A program made the translations under genes and the position numbers. From the NCBI GenBank assembly GCA_029555925.1, contig JAKPQU010000083.1, positions 1-15,054 of the forward strand: 15,054 nucleotides of DNA, written 5' to 3'. The DNA is from Bacillota bacterium (GTDB lineage: Bacteria; Eremiobacterota; SpSt-956; JAKJGF01). The stretch's first letter is position 1, and the number at the start of each line of letters is the position of its first letter. Shown here one piece after another: positions 1-13,470 of the stretch. The notes beneath the pieces are model-generated. The model did not search any database and was not told the DNA's origin. It worked only from the letters and a program-made list of their open reading frames with translations.

Positions 1-135
1 GCCTTATTTAATTTGTTTTACAGACAATAAATTAGCCCTTATTTAATTTTTAATCCTATATAAAAAACTAATTTTTCTTCTCCAGAGCCCGCCAGGCAGA
101 AGCTTTTTACGGATACCATTTTACCTGTTACGGTA
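1..135 (-). mobile_element. MITE-like element, copy 1 (cut by window edge)
   Basis: Read on the minus strand, this stretch starts with TACCGTAACAGGTAAA and continues with the same left arm and centre found at 9479 and 10871, including the shared blocks AGCTTCTGCCTGGC and TTTATTGTCTGTAAAAC. It stops at the window edge before the right arm. The five bases next to its visible end, CTAAG (136-140), are the expected position of a target duplication, but the partner lies outside the window. The element ends six bases beyond the stop codon of the gene at 142-672. It has no coding content, so any movement would depend on a transposase elsewhere. Confidence 0.8.
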
Positions 136-141
136 CTAAGA

Positions 142-698: not shown

Positions 699-754
699 TA
701 TAATGTAATGAGTGAAAAGTGAAAAGAACTGGACACGACTCACGACTCACTATA
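699..754. repeat. Heptad-repeat intergenic element H1 (inverted arms)
   Basis: Two in-phase units GTGAAAA (712-725) face two units GACTCAC (737-750), which read GTGAGTC on the other strand, so the element can fold into an imperfect hairpin. It ends CACTATA; read on the minus strand, that end (TATAGTGAGTCGTGAGTCG and two more bases) is identical over 21 nt to the start of the element at 2494. It lies between the divergent genes at 672 and 909. Confidence 0.65.
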
Positions 755-2584: not shown

Positions 2585-5500
2585 CTAAAAAATTTTCCAC
2601 CATCCTTTGTTTTCTTCCGTAGAAGTAGGCAGTGGTGTTTCATCGGGTTTATAGTTGCGGAAACAGTATATTTTACCATCATCGGAACCGATAAACAGCA
2701 TGCCTTCTGCTATGGCAGGTGATGACATGACAGGCCCTTTTGTTTGATATTCCCAGGGACGGCCCGAGTCTGTTTCCAGTGCATAAATTTTTCCGTCATC
2801 AGAACCCGTATAAAGTAAATTATTGGCAATTGCAGGACCTGAATTTATCTTCCCTCTGGTTTTAAATTCCCATATAAGCTCACCGTTAGAAGCATTCAAT
2901 GAATATATTTTTCTATCGTCAGAACCGAAATATACGGCATGGCCGTCAAAAGCAGCAGATGAGAGTATTCTGCCGGATTTGTTAAAGGTCCATACAATCT
3001 CTCCATTTTCTTTCTTCATAGAGCAGAACGTTTTATTCCATGTACCTGTATAAAGGAAATTTTCTGATATAATTATAGAAGAGGTTATTTTACCTCCCAG
3101 ATTTTGTTCCCATATTAATTCTCCGTTATAAGCGTTTAAAGTATAGACTTTACCGTTCATACCGCCTGTATAAAGGATGTCTTTATCCACAGAAGGTGAA
3201 CCCTGTACAGGACAGGGAAGAGGTTTTGACCATTTCTGGGCTCCGCTGTTAATATCTAAAGAAAAAATATGTCCTTTTTCATTTATAATATAGATAGAAT
3301 CTTTATATGCCAGAGGTGATGATATGATTGACGCACCTGTATTAAATTTCCACAAAAACTTACCGCTTATTGCTTCGAAGGCATAAAGAATATTATCAGT
3401 AGAACCACAGTACACATAGTTTTTATACACTACAGGCGTGGCCTGGACAGGGCCTCCTGTAATATTCTGCCATTTCTTTTCACCTGTTTCTATATCAATA
3501 GCATAGAGATTATTGTCATAAGATCCCGTATATAACATTCCATAATCCACTACAGGAGAAGATCTTATTTTTTCACCTGTTGCAAAAACCCAGTTTTCTT
3601 TAAGAAAACTCCACCTGAGAATAGTGGGAGGAGACATAGTTTTTTCTGTTTCCTGATATGATTGTCTCAGGTTATCTCTCCCCATCATGGGCCATCTTTT
3701 CTTACCCTGTCTGTTTAAAAGTATTTCAATTCTCTGTTTTATATTTTCATCAGAAGGATTAATAGAAGAAGCTGTCTGAAATACGTCCAGAGCTTCTTCT
3801 ATATGTTCCAGCCTTTCATAGGCTTCACCTAATTTTAAATAGTAATCTACAGTTTTCGGACTTTTAGATATGGCTTTTTTATATGAGTCAACTCCTTTTT
3901 GAATATTACCACCGGATACAAGTATATCACCGAGTAATATTATATAAGAATGCTCATCTGGAGACAGCTTCAGAGCCCTGTTTACCATCATCTCGGCTTC
4001 TGTTAATTTTTTGCTGTATAAATAGGCTTCTCCTAGTTTCAGGTAGTATTTTGCCACACCCGGCACCAGCCCAATTACCTTACTGAATGATTTTACGGCA
4101 TCATCATATTGATTGAGAAGAAGCTTTTCTTCTCCTTCCCTGAATATACGTTCGGCCTCCTCATATTTACTTCCGATTTCATTCAGCTTTTCTGAAATTT
4201 CCCTGTTACCCGGCTCCAGTTCCAGTGCTTTCTTAAGAACTGCAATAGCTTCGCTTTCTTTGTTTGTTTTTAACAGTAAAAATCCGAGTTCTTTATAATA
4301 GGTTCCATTTCCCGGAGATTGCTCAATAGCTTTATCCATAGCTTTTATTGCTTCAACTGTATTATCTATCTTAAGATAACACTGACTCTTTTTATATTCA
4401 ATGAGTCCGTCTCCTGTAATGTTTGATTTATTATACTCATCAAGGGCTTCTTCATATTTAGCCTGGAGAAAGTAGCAATCTCCCAGTAACAGATGGTTCC
4501 CAAGTTTATTCAAAATTTCTACTGCGTAATTAAAATTTGTTTCTTCCCGGAAAGAAGGATCTTTTTCCAGAAATTCCATCATACCTCTGGCTGTTTCCAT
4601 AAGATAGTCCTTATTGTCCGGTTCGGCTGACAGAGCTTCTTTAAATGCTTCAAGGAATTTTTTATCTCCCTCTGACAGATATTTTTTGCCTGCTTCAAAG
4701 TGATAGGAGCCTTTGATTTTCCCGAGTTCAGTGCGATATTCTTCCCTGTCCGGAGCAAGTTTTATGGCATTTTCAAGTTTCTTTATTGCTTCATCAAGAT
4801 TTCCTTCTTTTAATAATTTTTTGCTTTTTTCATAATCATCTTTTGCATTGACTATATTTCTCATACCGGCAAGTTTTGCCTTGATGTCAGGGTCATTCGG
4901 TTTCAGGACAAGAAACTTTGTATAAAATTTTATAGCTTCATAGGGCTGATTTATATGTTCATATATTTCTCCAAGTGTTTTAATATAAACAGGATTTGAA
5001 GGATTTATTTTTATTGCTTTCTGTATTTCTTTTATAGCTTCGTTGATTTCTCCGAGTAATTTAAGATAAACAGTATTTGAAGGATCTTTCTGTATTTCTT
5101 TTATAGCTCCATCGGTTCTTTCTTTAAATTTATAATTAATAAGTCCTATTCTAAAATGAGCCCAGTCAAGATTATCGTTTATATTAACGGCATTCTGGTA
5201 ATGAATAAGAGCTCTGTTATAGTTGTTTTTTCGGAACATTATATCGCCAATCAGGATGGAATATTGGGCAGAACATTCTATCTTCAGAAGTTCTTCCAGG
5301 ACAGAGATTGCTTCATCAAATAATTTAGGATCTTCAGACAGGTAACATGATTTTGCAAAGCCCTGGAGATACTCCTTTTTCCTCTCTATGGCCAATGCTT
5401 TTCTATAGTATTCTGCTGCTTTAAAATACTGTCCTGACTTGAATAAATTATTTCCTTCTTCAAAGTATTTTTTAGTAATACCGGCACTCGATACAAAACT

Positions 5501-7624
5501 GTAGAGGGTATTGCCGGAAGAGAAATAAAGGGTGCTGTTTGCAATGGCGGGTGAAGCATGGGTCGGGCCTGCAACCTTCATTTTATAGAGCACTTGACCT
5601 TTTTTTGCATCAATACAATAAAGATAATTGGTTATGACAAAAACTATTTTGTTTGCAAGAGCGGGAGATGAAAGTATGGGAGCGTCTGTCTGATATGACC
5701 AGATTCTTGTACCTTTAAAGGCATCAAGGCCGTAAACATTCATGTCGGTAGACGTTATATATACCATAGATTCTCCCACTGCAGCATTTGTTTCTATCTT
5801 GCTCCCTGTATTAAAGATCCATCTCATTCTCCCTGTATTTATATCAACTGCATAGAATTTCCCATCAAAAGAACCTGTATATAACATATTATTTTCTATG
5901 GAAGGGGTGGAACTCACAGGAGAACCTGCGTCAAATATCCATCTGGTCTGGCCTGTTTTAGCATTTACCGAGAAAATAGAAGCAGACATATTGCCGAAAA
6001 ATACATTTTCTTCATATATTGCAGGACTCGATATGATTGATGCTCTTGAATCAAATTCCCAGAGTTTTCTTACATTTGAAGTAATACCTGTAAGGGCATA
6101 GAGTTTATTATCACTGCTTCCTACATAGAGTATATCGTCATATACTGCAGGAGATGAAAATACAGGCCCCCCGGTTTTAAAATGCCACATTTTTCTGCCG
6201 TTGGAAGCCTGCAGTGCATAAACATTTGTGTCATTTGAACCGAAAAATACCATGCCTTTATAATAACATGGCGAAGATATAACCGGTTTCCCCGTGTCAT
6301 AGGCCCATTTTAATGAACCACTGGTTACATCCACACATAATAATTTCCCTGTTTTTGTTCCTATAAAAAGCATACCATCGCCTGCACATGGAGAAGATTT
6401 TGGTGGTATGTCAAAATGGTCATGCTGCCATAGAGGTGCAAGAGGTGATATAATTTCTATATCAAAGTTCTGGCAGGAAGTTCTTGTAACATTTTTTGAG
6501 AACATAGGCCATGATTTTATCAGTTCTTTTTTTATGGTCTCAAATTTTCCTCTTATAAGATTTATCTGTTCTGGAGGAAGAATACCTTTGAAGCCGGCAG
6601 TCATGCCTTTATATATTTCAGAAAGACCTTTTTCCATATTACCGAGATAATAATGTACCTCGCCGGCTCTGCCTGAATATTCACCTGTAGATGGATCGCT
6701 TCTGGCAGCATCCTGATAGTATTCCAGTGCTTTTTTATAGTTTTTCGCCAGAAGTTCCTGTTCTCCGAGAGAGAAGAATTTTCTGGCTCTATCAGTACCT
6801 GACAGAGCCCTGGTACAGGTAAGAGTTTTAAGGTCTTCGAGCAGTTCTTTTGGTGTCTGGTATCTTCTGTCTGCATCATTTTCCATTGCCTTCATGAGGA
6901 TTTTTTCCAGTTCTTCCGACACAGAAGGATTTATTTTTCTTGCAGGAAGAAAGTTAAAAGGTGTTTCTGAGGGATCTTTTTTTGTAAGAGCCTCATACAT
7001 GGTAACACCGAGAGAAAATATGTCAGATCTTATGTCAGATTTCCCCTTGTATTGTTCCGCTGCTGCATAACCTGGAGAGCCCATTCTCACAGTATCCATG
7101 GCATTGGGTTTCCATTCCCTTGCTATTGTAAAATCTATAATTTTTACTTTTCCGTCAGGTGTATGCTGGATATTTGAAGGTTTTATATCTCTTATAACTA
7201 TGGGATTAGGTTTCTGATGGCTTAAATATACCAGAGTTTTTGTAAGTTCTGTCATCCATTCTATAACCACTTTCTCAGGCACAGGGCCTTTATATGAATT
7301 AATTGTTTTTTCCAGACTCTGGCCCGGAACAAATTCTACAACCAGAAAGTGAGTACCCATTTCCTGAAAATATTCATAGGCTCTCGGAAGTGACGGATGG
7401 TTGAGCTTGGAAAGAAATGTGTGTTCCTTCATAAATAACTGGATATTCTGTGCTTTTTCCTTCGGATCTTTAGTCTGATCTATAAGACATTTCAGAACAA
7501 GATTATTCTGTCCTGTAAACTGGTCGCATATCTGATAGACGATACACTGTCCTCCACGGCCGAGGAGTCTTATTATCTGATATCTGTTTTTTAATTTTGT
7601 TCCCGGAGCTAAAGGAGTAACCAT
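2585..7624 (-). CDS. Giant Ser/Thr protein kinase with two PQQ-like propellers and TPR solenoid (1679 aa)
   Basis: ATG start with TAAGGG five bases upstream, 37 nt after the stop of the kinase gene at 7662-9299, so the two are co-transcribed. Residues ~14-270 are a Hanks-type kinase: glycine loop LGRGGQCIVY (21-30), Lys45, helix-C Glu67, catalytic IRDIKPSN (Asp146, Lys148, Asn151), DFT at 164-166, AAAE at 187-190 and Asp201. HRD and DFG are altered to IRD and DFT, but the phosphotransfer residues are kept. A short TPR pair follows (~281-345). A WPM motif (372-374) leads into an eight-repeat PQQ/BamB-like propeller (~399-712, repeats of the W-x-F-x-T-G...SSP...Y-x-G-S-x-D type). Next are about fifteen TPRs (~720-1310), a second WPM motif, and a second eight-repeat propeller (~1334-1655). 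No TM or signal peptide, so it is cytosolic. The propellers more likely bind proteins or ligands than act as PQQ enzymes. Substrates are unknown. Confidence 0.92.
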   Translation of the reverse strand: MVTPLAPGTKLKNRYQIIRLLGRGGQCIVYQICDQFTGQNNLVLKCLIDQTKDPKEKAQNIQLFMKEHTFLSKLNHPSLPRAYEYFQEMGTHFLVVEFVPGQSLEKTINSYKGPVPEKVVIEWMTELTKTLVYLSHQKPNPIVIRDIKPSNIQHTPDGKVKIIDFTIAREWKPNAMDTVRMGSPGYAAAEQYKGKSDIRSDIFSLGVTMYEALTKKDPSETPFNFLPARKINPSVSEELEKILMKAMENDADRRYQTPKELLEDLKTLTCTRALSGTDRARKFFSLGEQELLAKNYKKALEYYQDAARSDPSTGEYSGRAGEVHYYLGNMEKGLSEIYKGMTAGFKGILPPEQINLIRGKFETIKKELIKSWPMFSKNVTRTSCQNFDIEIISPLAPLWQHDHFDIPPKSSPCAGDGMLFIGTKTGKLLCVDVTSGSLKWAYDTGKPVISSPCYYKGMVFFGSNDTNVYALQASNGRKMWHFKTGGPVFSSPAVYDDILYVGSSDNKLYALTGITSNVRKLWEFDSRASIISSPAIYEENVFFGNMSASIFSVNAKTGQTRWIFDAGSPVSSTPSIENNMLYTGSFDGKFYAVDINTGRMRWIFNTGSKIETNAAVGESMVYITSTDMNVYGLDAFKGTRIWSYQTDAPILSSPALANKIVFVITNYLYCIDAKKGQVLYKMKVAGPTHASPAIANSTLYFSSGNTLYSFVSSAGITKKYFEEGNNLFKSGQYFKAAEYYRKALAIERKKEYLQGFAKSCYLSEDPKLFDEAISVLEELLKIECSAQYSILIGDIMFRKNNYNRALIHYQNAVNINDNLDWAHFRIGLINYKFKERTDGAIKEIQKDPSNTVYLKLLGEINEAIKEIQKAIKINPSNPVYIKTLGEIYEHINQPYEAIKFYTKFLVLKPNDPDIKAKLAGMRNIVNAKDDYEKSKKLLKEGNLDEAIKKLENAIKLAPDREEYRTELGKIKGSYHFEAGKKYLSEGDKKFLEAFKEALSAEPDNKDYLMETARGMMEFLEKDPSFREETNFNYAVEILNKLGNHLLLGDCYFLQAKYEEALDEYNKSNITGDGLIEYKKSQCYLKIDNTVEAIKAMDKAIEQSPGNGTYYKELGFLLLKTNKESEAIAVLKKALELEPGNREISEKLNEIGSKYEEAERIFREGEEKLLLNQYDDAVKSFSKVIGLVPGVAKYYLKLGEAYLYSKKLTEAEMMVNRALKLSPDEHSYIILLGDILVSGGNIQKGVDSYKKAISKSPKTVDYYLKLGEAYERLEHIEEALDVFQTASSINPSDENIKQRIEILLNRQGKKRWPMMGRDNLRQSYQETEKTMSPPTILRWSFLKENWVFATGEKIRSSPVVDYGMLYTGSYDNNLYAIDIETGEKKWQNITGGPVQATPVVYKNYVYCGSTDNILYAFEAISGKFLWKFNTGASIISSPLAYKDSIYIINEKGHIFSLDINSGAQKWSKPLPCPVQGSPSVDKDILYTGGMNGKVYTLNAYNGELIWEQNLGGKITSSIIISENFLYTGTWNKTFCSMKKENGEIVWTFNKSGRILSSAAFDGHAVYFGSDDRKIYSLNASNGELIWEFKTRGKINSGPAIANNLLYTGSDDGKIYALETDSGRPWEYQTKGPVMSSPAIAEGMLFIGSDDGKIYCFRNYKPDETPLPTSTEENKGWWKIF
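4937..5107 (-). repeat. Tandem TPR duplication with a shortened 23-residue unit
   Basis: Inside the giant kinase, residues 840-862 (5107 down to 5039) and 863-896 (5038 down to 4937) are near copies, both starting AIKEIQK and sharing PSN-x-VY and LGEI. The second is a normal 34-residue TPR. The first lacks four residues after QK and seven at its end, giving a 69-base unit. The DNA is almost identical around TCTGTATTTCTTTTATAGCT, so the duplication looks recent. Confidence 0.65.
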
Positions 7625-7661: not shown

Positions 7662-9299
7662 TTACAAATTATCTTTTATGCCTTTTAAAAGTTTCATTAA
7701 TTGTTCGGGTGATCTCTGTCTCTGTGCCGGATCTATTTGAACCATATTTAAAATCAGTTCCTGAATCCTGTCAGGTACAGATTCATTAAAGGTTTTAACA
7801 GGTATGATTTTTTTATAATAATGGCTTTCTAAAATCATATTGGGCGTATCACCTTCAAAAGGTAATTCACCTGTAAGTAACCTGTAAAATATAATTCCGA
7901 GAGAAAATAGATCTGAACGGAAATCCATAGATTTTTTTTCAAGTTTTTCCGGTGCCATATACTGCATCTGTCCTTTATAGACACCGATGGAATTTATCGA
8001 ATAGCCATACAGGTCCCTGCATATACAGTAATTATCGACTTTAACATGATCTGTTTCTGTGATAAGTATATTTGACGGTTTCAGATCGCCGTGTATAACG
8101 CCTTTTGCCTGACCATAGCTCAGGGCCAGTGTCAGTTGATAGATTATATCTACTGCTTCTTTTAAATCTATAGGTGAATTTTTCGGAATAATCTCATCGA
8201 GTCTTCTGGATTTTACAAATTCCAGAGCTATATAGAGATTTTTTTCCGAGCCATAGTCATATACATTGACAATATTCGGATGGTTAAGACCTTTCCATAT
8301 TTCCATTTCTTCCTGAAAATATTTTATAAATACAGGGTCCTGTGCCAGATAGGGTAATGGTATTTTTATAATAACCTCCTGGCCTGTATGGCAATGGATT
8401 CCTTTGTAAATGGTAAAAAAACTATCCTCTGAAATTTTTCCTGTAATTTTATAATTTCCTACTATTTTATCCTTACCATGAAGTCCGGTTTTGATAAATA
8501 TTTTTTTACATGCCATCACGATACATACAATAATTATTATCCCTGTAATAATATATAATAATGGAAAAGTTTTTTTTGCCTCATTCAGTGTTATTTTTAC
8601 TTCTTTTTTTTCCCCTTTCTTTATTTCAATCTCTCTTGTTTTAGTGTCGTAGCCAGATTTTATTACTTTTATCATGTGATTTCCCGGAGCAACAGAGAGT
8701 TCCACCAGAGGGCTTCTGCCTGTAACATTATTATCTATATAAATATCTGCATCAGGAGGAAGTGTTCTTATGGTCAATCTGCCGTTCTCGGCAGGATTGT
8801 TTCCGTCCGATACGGGTTTTAAGTTTATATTTATATTTTCTATTTCTCCGCTTTTTATAGTTATTGTTTCGGAATAGGTTTCATAACCTTCCATGGTAAC
8901 ATTTATTGTATGTTTCCCTGATAATACCAGTTTGAGATTGACAGGCGATTTACCTACATATACTTCATCCAGAAATACTTTTGCACCGGACGGCGTCGAT
9001 GTGACAGAGAGCCCTCCTTCTCTTTCCTGGAATACTATATGTATGGTTTTCGTAGGGCCCGGTTTTATCTCTATTTCCTTGATTACTTCCTGCTGGTCTT
9101 TGAGTGTGATCTTCAGGGTATGTTTTCCCTGAGGGATTTTATATACAGGCAGAGGCGTAGTTCCCACGTTTTTCCCGTCCAGGAAAACAGTAGCACCTAC
9201 AGGTTGAGAATTTACGAATATATCACCTGTTGCCATGGAAAAGGCCGGACAGGTTAACAGAAAGAATAAAATAAGACCTGGTATAAATTTATTTATCAA
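7662..9299 (-). CDS. Membrane Ser/Thr protein kinase with three extracytoplasmic PEGA domains (545 aa)
   Basis: Starts at TTG with AGGGG eight bases upstream. Residues 1-21 are a signal peptide (FIPGLILFFLLTCPAFS). Three PEGA domains follow at ~26-91, 96-161 and 173-239, each with the pattern S-x-P-x-x-A-x-[IV]-[FY]-[IL]-D-x-x-x-x-G-x-[ST]-P. A TM helix lies at ~246-265, then basic residues, then a kinase domain at ~282-540. The glycine loop is degenerate (GKISEDSFFTIY), but Lys312, a helix-C Glu (330/331), HGDLKPSN (Asp405, Lys407, Asn410), the DNY replacement of DFG (422-424), APE (449-451) and Asp463 remain. The topology puts PEGA outside and the kinase inside, suggesting a surface or envelope sensor. 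It is the first gene of the operon with the giant kinase, which may be its partner or substrate (inference). Activity is plausible but uncertain given the weak ATP loop. Confidence 0.9.
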   Translation of the reverse strand: MINKFIPGLILFFLLTCPAFSMATGDIFVNSQPVGATVFLDGKNVGTTPLPVYKIPQGKHTLKITLKDQQEVIKEIEIKPGPTKTIHIVFQEREGGLSVTSTPSGAKVFLDEVYVGKSPVNLKLVLSGKHTINVTMEGYETYSETITIKSGEIENININLKPVSDGNNPAENGRLTIRTLPPDADIYIDNNVTGRSPLVELSVAPGNHMIKVIKSGYDTKTREIEIKKGEKKEVKITLNEAKKTFPLLYIITGIIIIVCIVMACKKIFIKTGLHGKDKIVGNYKITGKISEDSFFTIYKGIHCHTGQEVIIKIPLPYLAQDPVFIKYFQEEMEIWKGLNHPNIVNVYDYGSEKNLYIALEFVKSRRLDEIIPKNSPIDLKEAVDIIYQLTLALSYGQAKGVIHGDLKPSNILITETDHVKVDNYCICRDLYGYSINSIGVYKGQMQYMAPEKLEKKSMDFRSDLFSLGIIFYRLLTGELPFEGDTPNMILESHYYKKIIPVKTFNESVPDRIQELILNMVQIDPAQRQRSPEQLMKLLKGIKDNL

Positions 9300-9404: not shown

Positions 9405-9478
9405 TGTGTTTAAATCCTGCTGAGATGATATGGGGTAATTGCGAGTTTATCTGTTTTGTATATACATCGGAACATAAG

Positions 9479-9820
9479 TACCGTAACAGGTAAAAGGGTA
9501 TCCATAAAAAGCTTCTGACTGGCAGGCTCTGGAGAAGAAAAATTAGTTTTTTCTATAGTATTAGAAATTAACCAGTGGTTATAGTTAGTGTCATAACTAT
9601 CCATAAATAATGACCTCGTAATGCGTAAAGCATAATGTGTGATGTGCAGGGATTAAACCCGTCACGCGTCACGCGTCACGACGACTTAAATTCTAATAAG
9701 TTATGAAATACACTATAATTTATTGTCTGCAAAACAAATTAAATAAGGCAAATTATTTTTCTTCGTAAGAGCCTGTCAGGCAGAAGCTGATAAATGGTTA
9801 CTAATTTACCTGTAGCGGTA
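9479..9820 (+). mobile_element. MITE-like element, copy 2 (interrupted by a nested insertion)
   Basis: Left arm 9479-9581 starts TACCGTAACAGGTAAA; right arm 9718-9820 ends in the reverse complement of TACCGCTACAGGTAAA, matching the left terminus at 14 of 16 bases. Both ends are flanked by the 5-bp direct repeat ATAAG (9474-9478 and 9821-9825), a target-site duplication. Removing the nested insert and its duplicated TA leaves about 206 bp, agreeing with the 207 bp of the copy at 10871. The arms are imperfectly complementary along most of their length. No open frame in it looks like a transposase; a frame at 9410-9604 is incidental. Confidence 0.88.
9582..9715. mobile_element. Nested 134-bp inverted-repeat element (H3) inserted at TA
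   Basis: This sequence interrupts copy 2 of the MITE exactly where the uninterrupted copy reads GGTTAATTTATT. Its ends are TAGTTAGTGTCATAACT and, from the other side, TAGTGTATTTCATAACT. It is flanked by TA on both sides (9580-9581 and 9716-9717), consistent with a TA target duplication as made by IS630/Tc1-mariner-type elements. Inside are heptad units GTAATGC, GTAAAGC, ATAATGT and GTGATGT (9618-9645) facing repeated GCGTCAC units (9666-9679), so it belongs to the same heptad family as the other intergenic elements. Confidence 0.78.
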
Positions 9821-9875
9821 ATAAGTTTATATGAAAAATTACAGGATCTTTATGAAAAGCTCTGCAGCATTCCTA

Positions 9876-10475
9876 TTAAAAATCTTTAAAAATAAGGCCT
9901 GCATCAATTTCCAGTCCTTCAAATCCTTCGACCTTTATTATATCATTCCGTGTGTATATTTCCGGCTTATTATAGGTGCTTTTATCGTTTAGTTTAAAAA
10001 TAAAAATCTCTTTTTCTTCCGGATCAAGGATCCAGTATTGATTTACTCTATTTTTTTCATAAAGGTCTCTTTTTTTTATAAAATCCTTTGATGCAGTAGA
10101 AGGTGATATGATTTCAATGATTATAGAAGGAGCACCTTTACAGCAATTCTCTTCTAATTTATCTAAATCACATACGACTAATATATCAGGTTGTACTACG
10201 TTAAATATTTCTTCATTCCTGTCTTTTTCATCTTCCGGAAATTTTACATCAAAGGGAGCTTCATAAACTTCACAGGTTTTATCTTCAAAATAATTATATA
10301 ATTTACTTGCGAGTTTTATAGAAATTTTCTGATGTTTTCTTGTTGGAGAAGGGCTCATGTTATAGGCAACACCATTAATTATTTCCCATCTTTCATTACC
10401 AGGCCATGTAAGATAATCGGCATAACTGAATTTATTCTCCTCTTTTTTTGCAGGTAAAGGCATATTCTTCACCAT
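9876..10475 (-). CDS. Uma2-family (DUF820) PD-(D/E)XK endonuclease-like protein (199 aa)
   Basis: The N-terminal part has the family signature YADYLTWP-x-x-ERWEIINGVAYNMSP followed by a His-containing helix. The nuclease-like core has QPDILVV with Asp97, then IIIEIISPST with Glu121 and a downstream Lys (K130 or K134/135), then YWILDPEEKEIFIF. These match the PD-(D/E)XK-type Uma2 fold. Length is normal for the family. The first ATG (10475) has AGGG five bases upstream. An in-frame ATG at 10463 (giving MPLPAKKEE) has GGTGA five bases upstream and is an equally good start. Uma2 genes are common in cyanobacteria and candidate phyla, often in many copies and without a known partner; the substrate is unknown. 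It lies between two MITE copies, in the most repeat-rich part of the window. Confidence 0.88.
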   Translation of the reverse strand: MVKNMPLPAKKEENKFSYADYLTWPGNERWEIINGVAYNMSPSPTRKHQKISIKLASKLYNYFEDKTCEVYEAPFDVKFPEDEKDRNEEIFNVVQPDILVVCDLDKLEENCCKGAPSIIIEIISPSTASKDFIKKRDLYEKNRVNQYWILDPEEKEIFIFKLNDKSTYNKPEIYTRNDIIKVEGFEGLEIDAGLIFKDF

Positions 10476-10546
10476 CCTTTCCCTATAATTTCCACTTTAC
10501 ATAATATCATAATGGATTGAAAAAGTCTATTTTATCAGTGTTAAAT

Positions 10547-10799
10547 CTATTTATTCATAAATTCCTGAACTTCTGTATTTTTTGCATTCAAGTCTTTTTT
10601 TATTTCCTTTATTATTTCCATCCATAATTTTTCCTGTTTTTCTACACTCCCAAGTAAAAGCAATGGATAATATATATAAAAGAGTCAAAAAAAATGAATT
10701 TTCCGAAAAATATTTATATATTTTTTTGTAAACTTTATCCGGATAATTTGTTATAATTATATCATAGATAAGATATCTATCATTTACTGACCTGAGCAT
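10547..10799 (-). pseudogene. Probable frameshifted remnant of a small membrane protein gene
   Basis: From the ATG at 10799 a frame reads MLRSVNDRYLIYDII and runs into a hydrophobic stretch (FFLTLLYILSIAF), after which its residues become basic and unlike protein (KGNKKRLECKKYRSSG). In another frame over 10547-10684 a coherent continuation exists: a hydrophobic start (LYYPLLLLGS), then a charged amphipathic tail ending MEIIKEIKKDLNAKNTEV and a stop at 10547-10549. A one-base shift near 10665-10684, next to A/T runs, would join the two. No ribosome site is obvious and I do not recognise the family. It may instead be non-coding, or the shift may be an assembly error. Confidence 0.35.
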
Positions 10800-10820
10800 A
10801 AATATGTAATAAAGGTTTTT

Positions 10821-10846
10821 CTCCCGTTACGCGTTACGAGAGCATG
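10821..10846. repeat. Short heptad-repeat remnant H4
   Basis: CGTTACG occurs twice in 7-nt phase (10825-10838). On the minus strand this reads GTAACGC and GTAACGG, the same unit type as in the palindrome at 2558-2569 and in the nested element at 9582. It is followed by GAGCAT (10840-10845), which can pair with ATGCTC (10859-10864). Confidence 0.4.
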
Positions 10847-10870
10847 GATGTATCATTTATGCTCACTCAG

Positions 10871-11077
10871 TACCGTAACAGGTAAAAGGGTATCCGTAAA
10901 AAGCTTCTGTCTGGCAGGCTCTGGAGAAGAAAAATTCGTTTTTTCTATAGTATTAGAAATTAACTAGGGGTTAATTTATTGTCTGTAAAATAAATTATAT
11001 AAGGCAAATTATTTTTCTTTGTAAGAGCCTGCCAGGCAGAAGCTGATAAAATGGTTACTAATTTATCTGGAGTGGTA
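10871..11077 (+). mobile_element. MITE-like element, copy 3 (intact, 207 bp)
   Basis: Begins TACCGTAACAGGTAAA and ends in the reverse complement of TACCACTCCAGATAAATT. Flanked by CTCAG at 10866-10870 and 11078-11082 (the match extends to ACTCAGTA if the terminal bases are counted), a target duplication. By eye it differs from copy 2 at about five of ~102 bases in the left arm. The arms pair over the AGCTTCTG...CAGAAGCT core and the flanking GAAGAAAAATT region, so a transcript would fold into a long interrupted hairpin. The right end lies 43 bases before the start of nfeD, so it could affect that gene's transcription. No coding frame is supported. Confidence 0.88.
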
Positions 11078-11104
11078 CTCAGTATATGTCTTTATTAAAA
11101 TCTG

Positions 11105-11122
11105 AAAGGAGGGATTTTTATA
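11105..11122 (+). promoter_or_regulatory. Strong ribosome site pointing to an ATA start codon for nfeD
   Basis: AAAGGAGGG (11105-11113) is followed, after a six-base gap, by ATA (11120-11122), which opens a perfect signal peptide in the nfeD frame. No ATG, GTG or TTG lies at a proper distance, and an in-frame TAA at 11096-11098 rules out a longer reading. The first conventional start codon (TTG, 11153) is 39 bases from this site and would remove half the signal peptide. Confidence 0.6.
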
Positions 11123-12418
11123 AAAAAGATTTTATGTGTCTTTATTTTTATATTGCTTTTATTCATGTCTGTTCTGGCAAAAGACAGTGGCTCCGTATAT
11201 GTAATGAAGATAAAAGGACCTATAGGCCCTGTTACTGATACATATTTCAAAAGGGTTCTGAATGAGGCAAGAGAGAATGATGCCATGTGTCTTGTAGTAG
11301 AGATGGATACACCGGGCGGTCTGATGGATTCAATGAAAGATATAATGCAGAAAATTATCAATTCTGAAATACCTGTTGTTGTTTATGTATCTCCCGGTGG
11401 AGCCAGTGCAACATCGGCAGGGGTTTTTATAACACTTTCCGCACATGTTGCGGCTATGGCGCCCAATACAAACATAGGAGCGGCTCATCCTGTCATGATC
11501 GGTGAAAACGGTGAGCAACAGATGTCAAAGGAAATGAAAGAAAAGATAACAAATGATTCCGTAGCCCTGATAAAAACAACGGCAGAAAAAAAAGGAAGAA
11601 ATATGGAATGGGCGGAAAAAGCTGTAAGAGAAAGTGTTTCTGCAACAGAGAAAGAAGCACTGCAACTGAAGGTTGTAGACCTTATAGCAGGTAATCTTAC
11701 AGAATTACTGAAAAATATTGACGGTTATAAAATTGATACGTCAAAAGGAACAGTTATTCTGAAAACTTCAGGTGTTATAATAAAGGAAATATCAATGAGC
11801 ACCACTGAAAAATTCCTTGATGTTCTGAGTAATCCCAATGTGGCTTATATATTAATCATACTCGGAACTTACGGTTTGATTTACGAACTGGCAAGCCCTA
11901 TGGCAATATTCCCGGGCGTAGTCGGAGGAATATGTATTATCCTTGCTTTTTTTGCACTGGGAACATTGCCTGTAAATTATGCAGGTCTTGCGCTGTTAGT
12001 ATTTGCCTTTATTCTTTTTATAATAGATATTAAAGCACCTACCCATGGATTTCTTACTGCAGGAGGGATAGTATCAATGATTTTAGGTTCTCTGTTTCTC
12101 TTTAATTCTGATCTGCCATTCTATCAGGTTTCATGGAGTATTATTCTTGGAGTAGTGGGCACGACTACAATCTTTTTTGTATTTATAATAACTACAGTTC
12201 TCAGGAGCCATAAAAAGAAAGTTACTACAGGAGTGGAAGGACTCGCAGGACAGAAGGGAATTGTAAAAAGTCCACTTGAACCGAAAGGGCAGATCATGCT
12301 TGATGGTGCCCTGTGGCGTGCCATAACTGCAGGAAGATATATTAAAGAAGGAGAAGAGGTTGTTGTTAAGAAGGTAGATGGATTGACTGTATATGTTGAA
12401 CCCTGTGAAAATAAGTAG
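11120..12418 (+). CDS. nfeD: NfeD-family membrane-bound serine protease (ClpP-class, long form, ~432 aa)
   Basis: Numbered from the proposed ATA start. A signal sequence is present (KKILCVFIFILLLFMSVLA). Residues ~25-190 are a ClpP/crotonase-like protease domain with VVEMDTPGG, the nucleophile motif GGASATSAG (Ser99 in TSAG) and a Lys-rich helix (Lys142 the likely dyad partner by comparison with archaeal 1510-N). Five TM helices follow (~242-257, 263-283, 287-304, 310-328, 338-360). The C-terminal ~372-427 is the OB-fold NfeD domain (GxxGxVKSPLEPKGQIMLDG...). This is the full-length form. The next gene is a stomatin; in archaea the protease domain cleaves the hydrophobic C-terminal region of its paired stomatin, so a shared role in membrane protein control is expected. 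If the ATA start is wrong, the start is TTG at 11153. Confidence 0.9.
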   Translation: MKKILCVFIFILLLFMSVLAKDSGSVYVMKIKGPIGPVTDTYFKRVLNEARENDAMCLVVEMDTPGGLMDSMKDIMQKIINSEIPVVVYVSPGGASATSAGVFITLSAHVAAMAPNTNIGAAHPVMIGENGEQQMSKEMKEKITNDSVALIKTTAEKKGRNMEWAEKAVRESVSATEKEALQLKVVDLIAGNLTELLKNIDGYKIDTSKGTVILKTSGVIIKEISMSTTEKFLDVLSNPNVAYILIILGTYGLIYELASPMAIFPGVVGGICIILAFFALGTLPVNYAGLALLVFAFILFIIDIKAPTHGFLTAGGIVSMILGSLFLFNSDLPFYQVSWSIILGVVGTTTIFFVFIITTVLRSHKKKVTTGVEGLAGQKGIVKSPLEPKGQIMLDGALWRAITAGRYIKEGEEVVVKKVDGLTVYVEPCENK

Positions 12419-12450
12419 TAAAGGCAGGTGAGATTTTTATATATTTATAT

Positions 12451-12515
12451 GAGAATCGTGAAGGGTGAAGAGTGAAGGGTGAAGAGAAGATAAGTTCTGT
12501 TAGAGTATTATAACT
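12451..12515. repeat. Heptad-repeat element H5 inside the nfeD-stomatin gap
   Basis: Four perfect in-phase 7-nt units, GTGAAGG and GTGAAGA alternating (12458-12485), are followed by AT-rich sequence ending ATTATAACTCGTGA. It takes up about half of the 135-base gap between two genes expected to be co-transcribed, so it is probably part of their mRNA. The inverted arm is poorly preserved. Confidence 0.6.
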
Positions 12516-12553
12516 CGTGAAAAATTTTTAAATAAAGAAAGGATGATTTTACA

Positions 12554-13381
12554 TTGGAAAAAATTATTGGTTGTGGCGCACCTTTAGTTATTATTGCTAT
12601 TGTTGCATTCATATCTATTATTACATCTGCCATAAGGATTGTAAATGAATATGAAAGGGCTGTTGTGTTCAGACTGGGAAGGCTGGTAGGAGCAAAAGGG
12701 CCCGGCCTTATCCTGCTTATACCCTTTGTTGATAAAATGAGAAAGGTGGATATTCGCGTTATTACAATGGATGTGCCGGCACAGGAAGTTATAACCAAAG
12801 ATAATGTTACAATCAAAGTAAATGCCGTTGTATATTTTAAAGTATTTGATCCATGTAAATCTGTTGTGAATGTTCTTGATTTTATAAGAGCAACCTCTCA
12901 GATTGCCCAGACTACCCTGAGGAGTATACTTGGACAGGTAGAGTTAGATGAAGTATTATCACACAGGGAAAAAATCAACCAGGAACTTCAGCATATAATT
13001 GACGAACAGACCGAACCATGGGGTATTAAAGTGAGCACAGTAGAAGTAAAAGATGTCGAATTGCCTCAGAGTATGCAGAGAGCCATGGCAAAACAGGCAG
13101 AAGCAGAACGTGAAAAGAGAGCAAAGATTATTCATGCTTCAGGTGAATTTGAGGCATCGAAGCAACTGGCACAGGCAGCCAGTATAATAGCATCCGAACC
13201 TGCTACATTACAGCTCAGATTCCTCCAGACCCTTACAGAAATAGCGGTTGAGAAAAACTCTACCATACTGTTCCCTGTACCCATAGATATTTTCGAACCT
13301 TTTAAAGCTATTGCACATAAAATGAGAGAAGATATGAACAATGTTGGTGAGAAAAAACTAACCAGAGGAATAGATGATTAA
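12554..13381 (+). CDS. Stomatin/slipin-family SPFH protein (275 aa)
   Basis: Starts at TTG with AAAGGATGA about ten bases upstream. A hydrophobic N-terminal segment (residues ~8-27) anchors it in the membrane. Then comes the slipin/SPFH domain (~28-180) with the family signature [47 protein letters not shown] and [20 protein letters not shown]. The coiled-coil region [20 protein letters not shown] (~186-205) drives oligomer assembly. The C-terminal hydrophobic stretch [12 protein letters not shown] corresponds to the part cut by the NfeD-type protease in archaeal homologues. Length is normal for prokaryotic stomatins. It follows nfeD on the same strand, the usual bacterial and archaeal arrangement. 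A repeat hairpin begins immediately after its stop codon. Confidence 0.93.
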
Positions 13382-13383
13382 TT

Positions 13384-13470
13384 AGCGGTCAGCTATCAGC
13401 GATCAGCTATCAGCAGAACAGGAACTACATTCTTTCTGGCTGAATGCTGACCGCTGAATGGTGACCGCTA
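13384..13470. repeat. Heptad-repeat hairpin H6 overlapping the VanZ-like gene end
   Basis: Left arm AGCGGTC, AGCTATC, AGCGATC, AGCTATC, AGC (13384-13414) and right arm 13439-13469 are inverted, pairing at 25 of 31 positions across a 24-nt loop. On the plus strand the right arm reads CTGAATG, CTGACCG, CTGAATG and GTGACCG in phase. The GCGG...CCGC core is flanked by TA on both sides. It begins three bases after the stomatin stop and extends into the coding sequence of the convergent VanZ-like gene. Its strong stem could end transcription from both sides, although there is no T-run. Confidence 0.75.

Follow-up and report, generated by a model that had tools for sequence, protein, structure and literature searches.

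A 15,054-nt stretch of DNA assigned to Bacillota bacterium (hereafter the window) carries three copies of a short repeat with long complementary arms, which raises the question of whether this repeat is a mobile element or a hairpin kept for the sake of its RNA, and of how it came to occupy its sites. Direct reading and an end-pattern scan bore out the two complete copies and one partial copy of the preliminary description, as well as their common termini (Table 1). All three have TACCGTAACAGGTAAA ends, and the pattern TACCGYWACAGGTAAANNNGTAWCC, allowing up to 3 mismatches, occurs five times in the window, in each case at one of the copies, whereas 200 shuffles gave none; the terminal inverted repeats thereby follow one pattern, at the two ends of copy 1 and of copy 2 and at the single end of copy 3. 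The flanks of both complete copies read as previously given and are exact 5-bp target-site duplications (TSDs) in two of two cases. Without the nested 134 bp (9582–9715) and one TA, copy 1 measures 206 bp against the 207 bp of copy 2, with which it aligns at 95% over 105 nt and at 94% over 79 nt, in agreement with the length claimed earlier. The element also lacks coding content, as proposed: the window list of ORFs of at least 60 aa has none inside copy 2, and the 64-aa (9410–9604) and 60-aa (39–221) frames that overlap copies 1 and 3, respectively, extend outside the element.

Table 1. Positions of the repeat copies, their flanking duplications and the nested insert in the window
Feature	Position	Strand	Basis
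Copy 3, truncated by window start	1..135	-	end pattern, alignment, profile
CTAAG flank of copy 3, partner flank beyond window	136..140	.	read from sequence
Left TSD of copy 1, ATAAG	9474..9478	.	read from sequence
Copy 1, split by nested insert (206 bp without it)	9479..9820	+	
Left TA duplication of nested insert	9580..9581	.	comparison with copy 2
Nested 134-bp element, inverted ends TAGTTAGTGTCATAACT / AGTTATGAAATACACTA	9582..9715	+	
Right TA duplication of nested insert	9716..9717	.	comparison with copy 2
Right TSD of copy 1, ATAAG	9821..9825	.	read from sequence
Left TSD of copy 2, CTCAG	10866..10870	.	read from sequence
Copy 2, 207 bp, intact	10871..11077	+	end pattern, fold, nhmmer profile
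Right TSD of copy 2, CTCAG	11078..11082	.	read from sequence

Between copies 1 and 2 lies a Uma2-family gene (9876–10475, identified with Pfam). A composite transposon formed by both copies around this gene was considered and rejected, because the TSD of one copy differs from that of the other, so the pair was not mobilised as a whole.

Comparison with the uninterrupted copy 2 further revealed that the nested insert combines a TA duplication with inverted ends, as in MITEs of the IS630/mariner type, and its centre contains CGTCACG heptamer repeats. End-to-end relatives occur at four loci (L120 2187–2323, L116 3730–3866, L147 691–813 and L046 1238–1370) of Bacillota bacterium UR.bin48, the metagenome-assembled genome (MAG) dealt with below. 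On these sequence features, the insert represents a second, TA-duplicating MITE-like family, with ends like TAGTTAGTKTCATAAC, flanking TA in the window and at L046, and a heptamer-like repeat centre. The Uma2 gene adjoins both the repeat and a TA-type element not only in the window but also at L027 261–537 of UR.bin48, where TA element and gene keep the same order and the gene stretch is 68% identical; this association may be coincidence. Heptamer tandem repeats are also scattered over the window (734–750, 2498–2543, 9660–9680, 12458–12486, 13384–13414 and 13439–13469), with the types CACGACT, GTGAGTC, CGTCACG, GTGAAGG, AGCGATC and GCTGAAT. They have short matches in UR.bin48, where some copies of the 207-bp family are inserted in such repeats.

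An exact end-pattern scan of 84,980 species genomes, which misses genomes whose ends have diverged from the pattern, returned 50 stretches, all 50 of them in the single MAG UR.bin48. Ends with up to 3 mismatches occur there 135 times (70 + 65) and centres 160 times (89 + 71), reversed-pattern controls giving 0 in both cases; a looser end pattern yielded 189 matches. UR.bin48 carries about 160 copies. When the 148 genomes around it were searched at up to 2 mismatches, matches appeared in UR.bin48 alone, and neither viral contigs (exact patterns) nor plasmids and phages (blastn with window copy 2) gave any. Window positions 11095–13380 match UR.bin48 DNA at 77–78% identity, and we therefore take this MAG to be a related but different species.

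The nucleotide comparison proposed in the preliminary description failed as such: copy 2 had no match in UR.bin48 at E 0.001 among the 40 of 124 candidates that were scored, in our reading because the interior has diverged. The relatives were instead located by their end pattern, and an nhmmer profile built on nine of them matched window copy 2 over its full length (profile positions 1–221, E=1.7e-7) and the truncated copy 3 (E=5.9e-5), the split copy 1 being absent from the reported matches. The catalogue drawn from about 0.63 Mb holds at least 151 copies or pieces, the window included. Of these, 80, namely 79 from UR.bin48 plus window copy 2, are complete and include the flank on either side; family members are ~207–229 bp long. 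Two derivatives stand apart. A 74-bp form at L022 2698–2771, barely more than two ends with CTTAG on both sides, is possibly the smallest mobile form, and at L036 2836–2857 a copy breaks off into sequence ending GTGATTGAAAC, which resembles a CRISPR repeat end.

Repeats of this kind may be misplaced by assembly or binning, and copy 3 is indeed truncated by the window start, while the matches at L003, L005 and L008 lie close to a contig end. Against such an artefact, whose probability we regard as negligible, copies in two different hosts have flanks that are distinct on either side. The family occurs at many unrelated sites (160 centre matches in UR.bin48 and three copies in the window).

We examined these sites for traces of insertion. 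Identical 5-bp flanks border 36 of the 80 complete copies, as compared with a mean of 13.4 and a maximum of 24 in 2000 shuffles of flank pairs that keep the target preference; the other 44 copies have non-identical flanks. Rare 5-mers are duplicated as well, namely GTAAG (twice), CGTAG, CTTAT and the CTCAG of the window. Across 65 copies the target consensus is CTWAG, i.e., C-T-(A/T)-A-G, with little preference beyond these 5 bp, the strongest outside base being A in 38 of 65 copies at right flank position 7. A clean paralogous empty site was found for L066: this copy is flanked by CGTAG on both sides, and L118 and L041 contain a single CGTAG; two more paralogues read CATAG and TGTAG at the site. 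The comparison for L042 was not clean (CTTAG at the copy, mostly CTCCA at the paralogous sites), and copies inside heptamer-type repeats yielded no clean empty sites. The window locus itself has a counterpart at L051, which aligns with 8137–9231 (64%) and 11200–12117 (77%). Between these conserved matches L051 has 381 bp as against 1968 bp in the window, with no copy of the repeat and no Uma2 gene. An empty site is thus documented through the paralogues of L066, and absence of both insertions at the level of the locus through L051. Surviving insertions lie mainly between genes: among those with long enough flanks, 7 of 57 fall inside ORFs of at least 120 aa, as compared with 1893 of 2850 random points (66%). 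Three head-to-tail pairs share one 5-mer between their members (L012 5150–5596, L119 4001–4456 and L144 121–576), consistent with insertion of an element into a duplication that was already there. The earlier suggestion that the family is active or recently active gains limited weight from the median nearest-neighbour divergence of 2.7% among UR.bin48 copies.

The non-identical flanks of UR.bin48 copies differ mostly in one direction. Of the 79 complete UR.bin48 copies, 8 were dropped and 71 retained for their good ends and no more than 2 differences; among these, 30 differences leave the inward strands G.T-pairable, 6 are of the opposite type and 9 are transversions; for 30 versus 6, p = 7e-5, an optimistic value as related copies are not independent. 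Outward flank words at 223 ends, partial copies included, are distributed in the same sense: CTTAG 82, CTAAG 54, CCAAG 24, CTTGG 1, CTCAG 11 and CTGAG 3. A duplicated CCAAG/CTTGG target should give both words equally. The sums fit a CTWAG origin in which the outward strand has undergone T to C change at the TpA step, affecting about a third of CTAAG ends (24/78) and an eighth of CTTAG ends (11/93). Nearest-neighbour distance has the same median, 2.7%, in copies with G.T-only differences (n=23) and in those with identical flanks (n=35; p = 0.92), so that mismatches are unrelated to copy divergence, which speaks against slow decay. For the mismatched copies, paralogous sites give no ancestral base, their targets being variable heptamer-type repeats. 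In the window, the 5-bp flanks of copies 1 and 2 are identical within each pair, so the asymmetry is seen in UR.bin48 only.

Non-identical flanks would be accounted for by a tyrosine recombinase acting on a circular intermediate with a 5-bp coupling sequence, which would leave one flank derived from the donor and the other from the target. The joined ends are in fact inverted around a 5-bp spacer, and both the 44 of 80 copies with differing flanks and the lack of a rise in mismatches with divergence are in line with such a route. It is nonetheless highly improbable: the excess of identical flanks is large and extends to rare 5-mers, bases outside the 5 bp show little preference, and, as we reason, recombination of this type should produce both mismatch directions equally, contrary to the 30 versus 6 counted.

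One-directional flank differences are not what a plain cut-and-fill model would lead one to expect. Transposition might leave a strand-specific mark: the strand to which the element 3′ end is joined would have C in place of T at roughly one third of outward-CTAAG ends, such that the inward 5-nt strands still pair through G.T wobble. We hold this reading only tentatively and judge it rather unlikely. A mark of this type would fit a bacterial counterpart of the piggyBac-like route, in which a 5-nt 5′ overhang from the donor site anneals to the target, and would likewise fit a base change on single-stranded DNA during gap repair, by error or deamination. Inside the element, A/T transitions average 1.8% per column, except for six columns at 11–33% that probably reflect subfamily differences; T-to-C change at TpA columns averages 3.2% and affects the similar context ATACTAAC in 5 of 79 copies. 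Given these rates, a context hotspot, that is, host-specific mutation beside the ends, stays a candidate cause of the asymmetry.

The long complementary arms invite a different explanation for the whole family, namely a structured RNA element, or a regulator or terminator, kept by selection for its hairpin. Copy 2 has a predicted fold of −81.9 kcal/mol against a shuffle mean of −40.8 (z −10.2; 0 of 200 shuffles as good). This fold comprises 53 long-range arm pairs with bulges around a central 75 nt with only local hairpins, so that the original wording, almost fully self-complementary, is a little strong. The arms differ in sequence between the two hosts yet pair in both, with the same overall fold shape. 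Variation is lower in stem columns than in unpaired ones (3.1% versus 5.2%), which makes some constraint on them possible, and the mostly intergenic placement of the copies would also suit a functional RNA. However, complementary double changes number 19 in the long-range arms of the UR.bin48 copies, a value that 1000 shuffles also reach (mean 11.1, max 22), and complementary transversions number 4 (mean 1.2, max 5); those found in single copies at L005 and L012, considered as covariation candidates, were discarded on the same grounds. Arm covariation thus lends no support to the notion that a hairpin in transcripts matters. Moreover, Rfam returned no match in the window at gathering scores, and the related locus L051 does without the element. 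We accordingly rate selection for an RNA structure as very unlikely. From comparison of the two hosts we take the arm difference to reflect inverted arms diverging in each lineage, and the hairpin most likely just mirrors these arms.

If the repeat is a transposon, its transposase is presumably supplied in trans. The preliminary description had noted no recognised transposase nearby, and a Pfam scan of eight window ORFs, with the 1679-aa ORF 2585–7624 outside the scan, agreed with it in finding none. Five transposase families were searched in UR.bin48. PF01609 (DDE_Tnp_1) occurs at four places, L124–L127, none of them bounded by TACCG ends; PF00665 (rve), PF13701 (DDE_Tnp_1_4) and PF01526 (Tn3) had 0 matches, and the 0 obtained for PF13843 (DDE_Tnp_1_7) is uninformative, as its control matched nowhere. 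No end pair with a longer interior in the UR.bin48 loci examined made a convincing parent. At L029 626–2538, two partial ends enclose 1.8 kb containing a 94-aa piece that we read as methyltransferase-like and a 443-aa ORF of no known kind, and the flanks do not match; at L110 6122 a lone end precedes an unrelated gene. Both were dismissed. An autonomous partner with the same ends was accordingly found neither through the five families nor in the part of the fragmented MAG covered, nor did these searches yield a name for the parent IS family that the preliminary description had left unnamed. Since the UR.bin48 assembly is broken into hundreds of contigs, and the repeat forms the end of some, it is quite possible that the parent element was left unassembled.

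Taken together, copies with fixed ends, the excess of identical flanks, the empty site, the L051 locus and the absence of a transposase from the scanned window ORFs uphold the original proposal of a non-autonomous MITE with 5-bp TSDs. We consider it very probable that the element belongs to a gene-less MITE family of ~207–229 bp that is moved in trans at CTWAG-like sites with 5-bp duplication. Beyond the ends, TSDs, target consensus, copy number and one empty site, which were directly observed, the mechanism would involve a transposase supplied in trans. Such an enzyme would recognise the ends of a DNA transposon whose terminal inverted repeats (TACCGYAACAGGTAAA...) are imperfect and whose arms are complementary over a long stretch, and would insert it at CTWAG-like sites, generating the 5-bp duplication.

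Phage Mu and other DDE elements with a 5-bp stagger also make 5-bp duplications and prefer symmetric targets of the C-Y-N-R-G style, a likeness that concerns these known features and not the ends; no rve-domain gene (PF00665) was found in UR.bin48. Correia and ERIC elements, for their part, target TA. The latter two are short repeats with more than 100 copies in some genomes (PMC10969869); the window family is comparable through its copy number in UR.bin48 and differs in duplicating 5 bp instead of TA. The same review characterises prokaryotic MITEs as shorter than 500 bp, AT-rich, intergenic and stem-loop forming, with inverted ends and direct repeats (PMC10969869), general features that the window family shares. 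It departs from them in its complementary arms, which reach far beyond the terminal repeats, its CTWAG target and, in the UR.bin48 relatives, the one-directional TSD differences. Chunjie of Geobacter uraniireducens, as described there, is a 235-bp MITE with 37 further copies of 178–235 bp and 57 partial ones, mostly intergenic (PMC10969869). It resembles the window family in size and intergenic placement, a comparison drawn from its description and not from ends or duplication length, and differs in host and copy number. As far as these searches go, the family is new as a family and ordinary as a kind.

With this analysis, a poorly known lineage gains a MITE family of high copy number and sharply defined 5-bp target. 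Most deserving of specialist attention are the TSD mismatches with their prevailing direction: should they arise in the course of transposition, the duplications would preserve a record of the origin of each strand.
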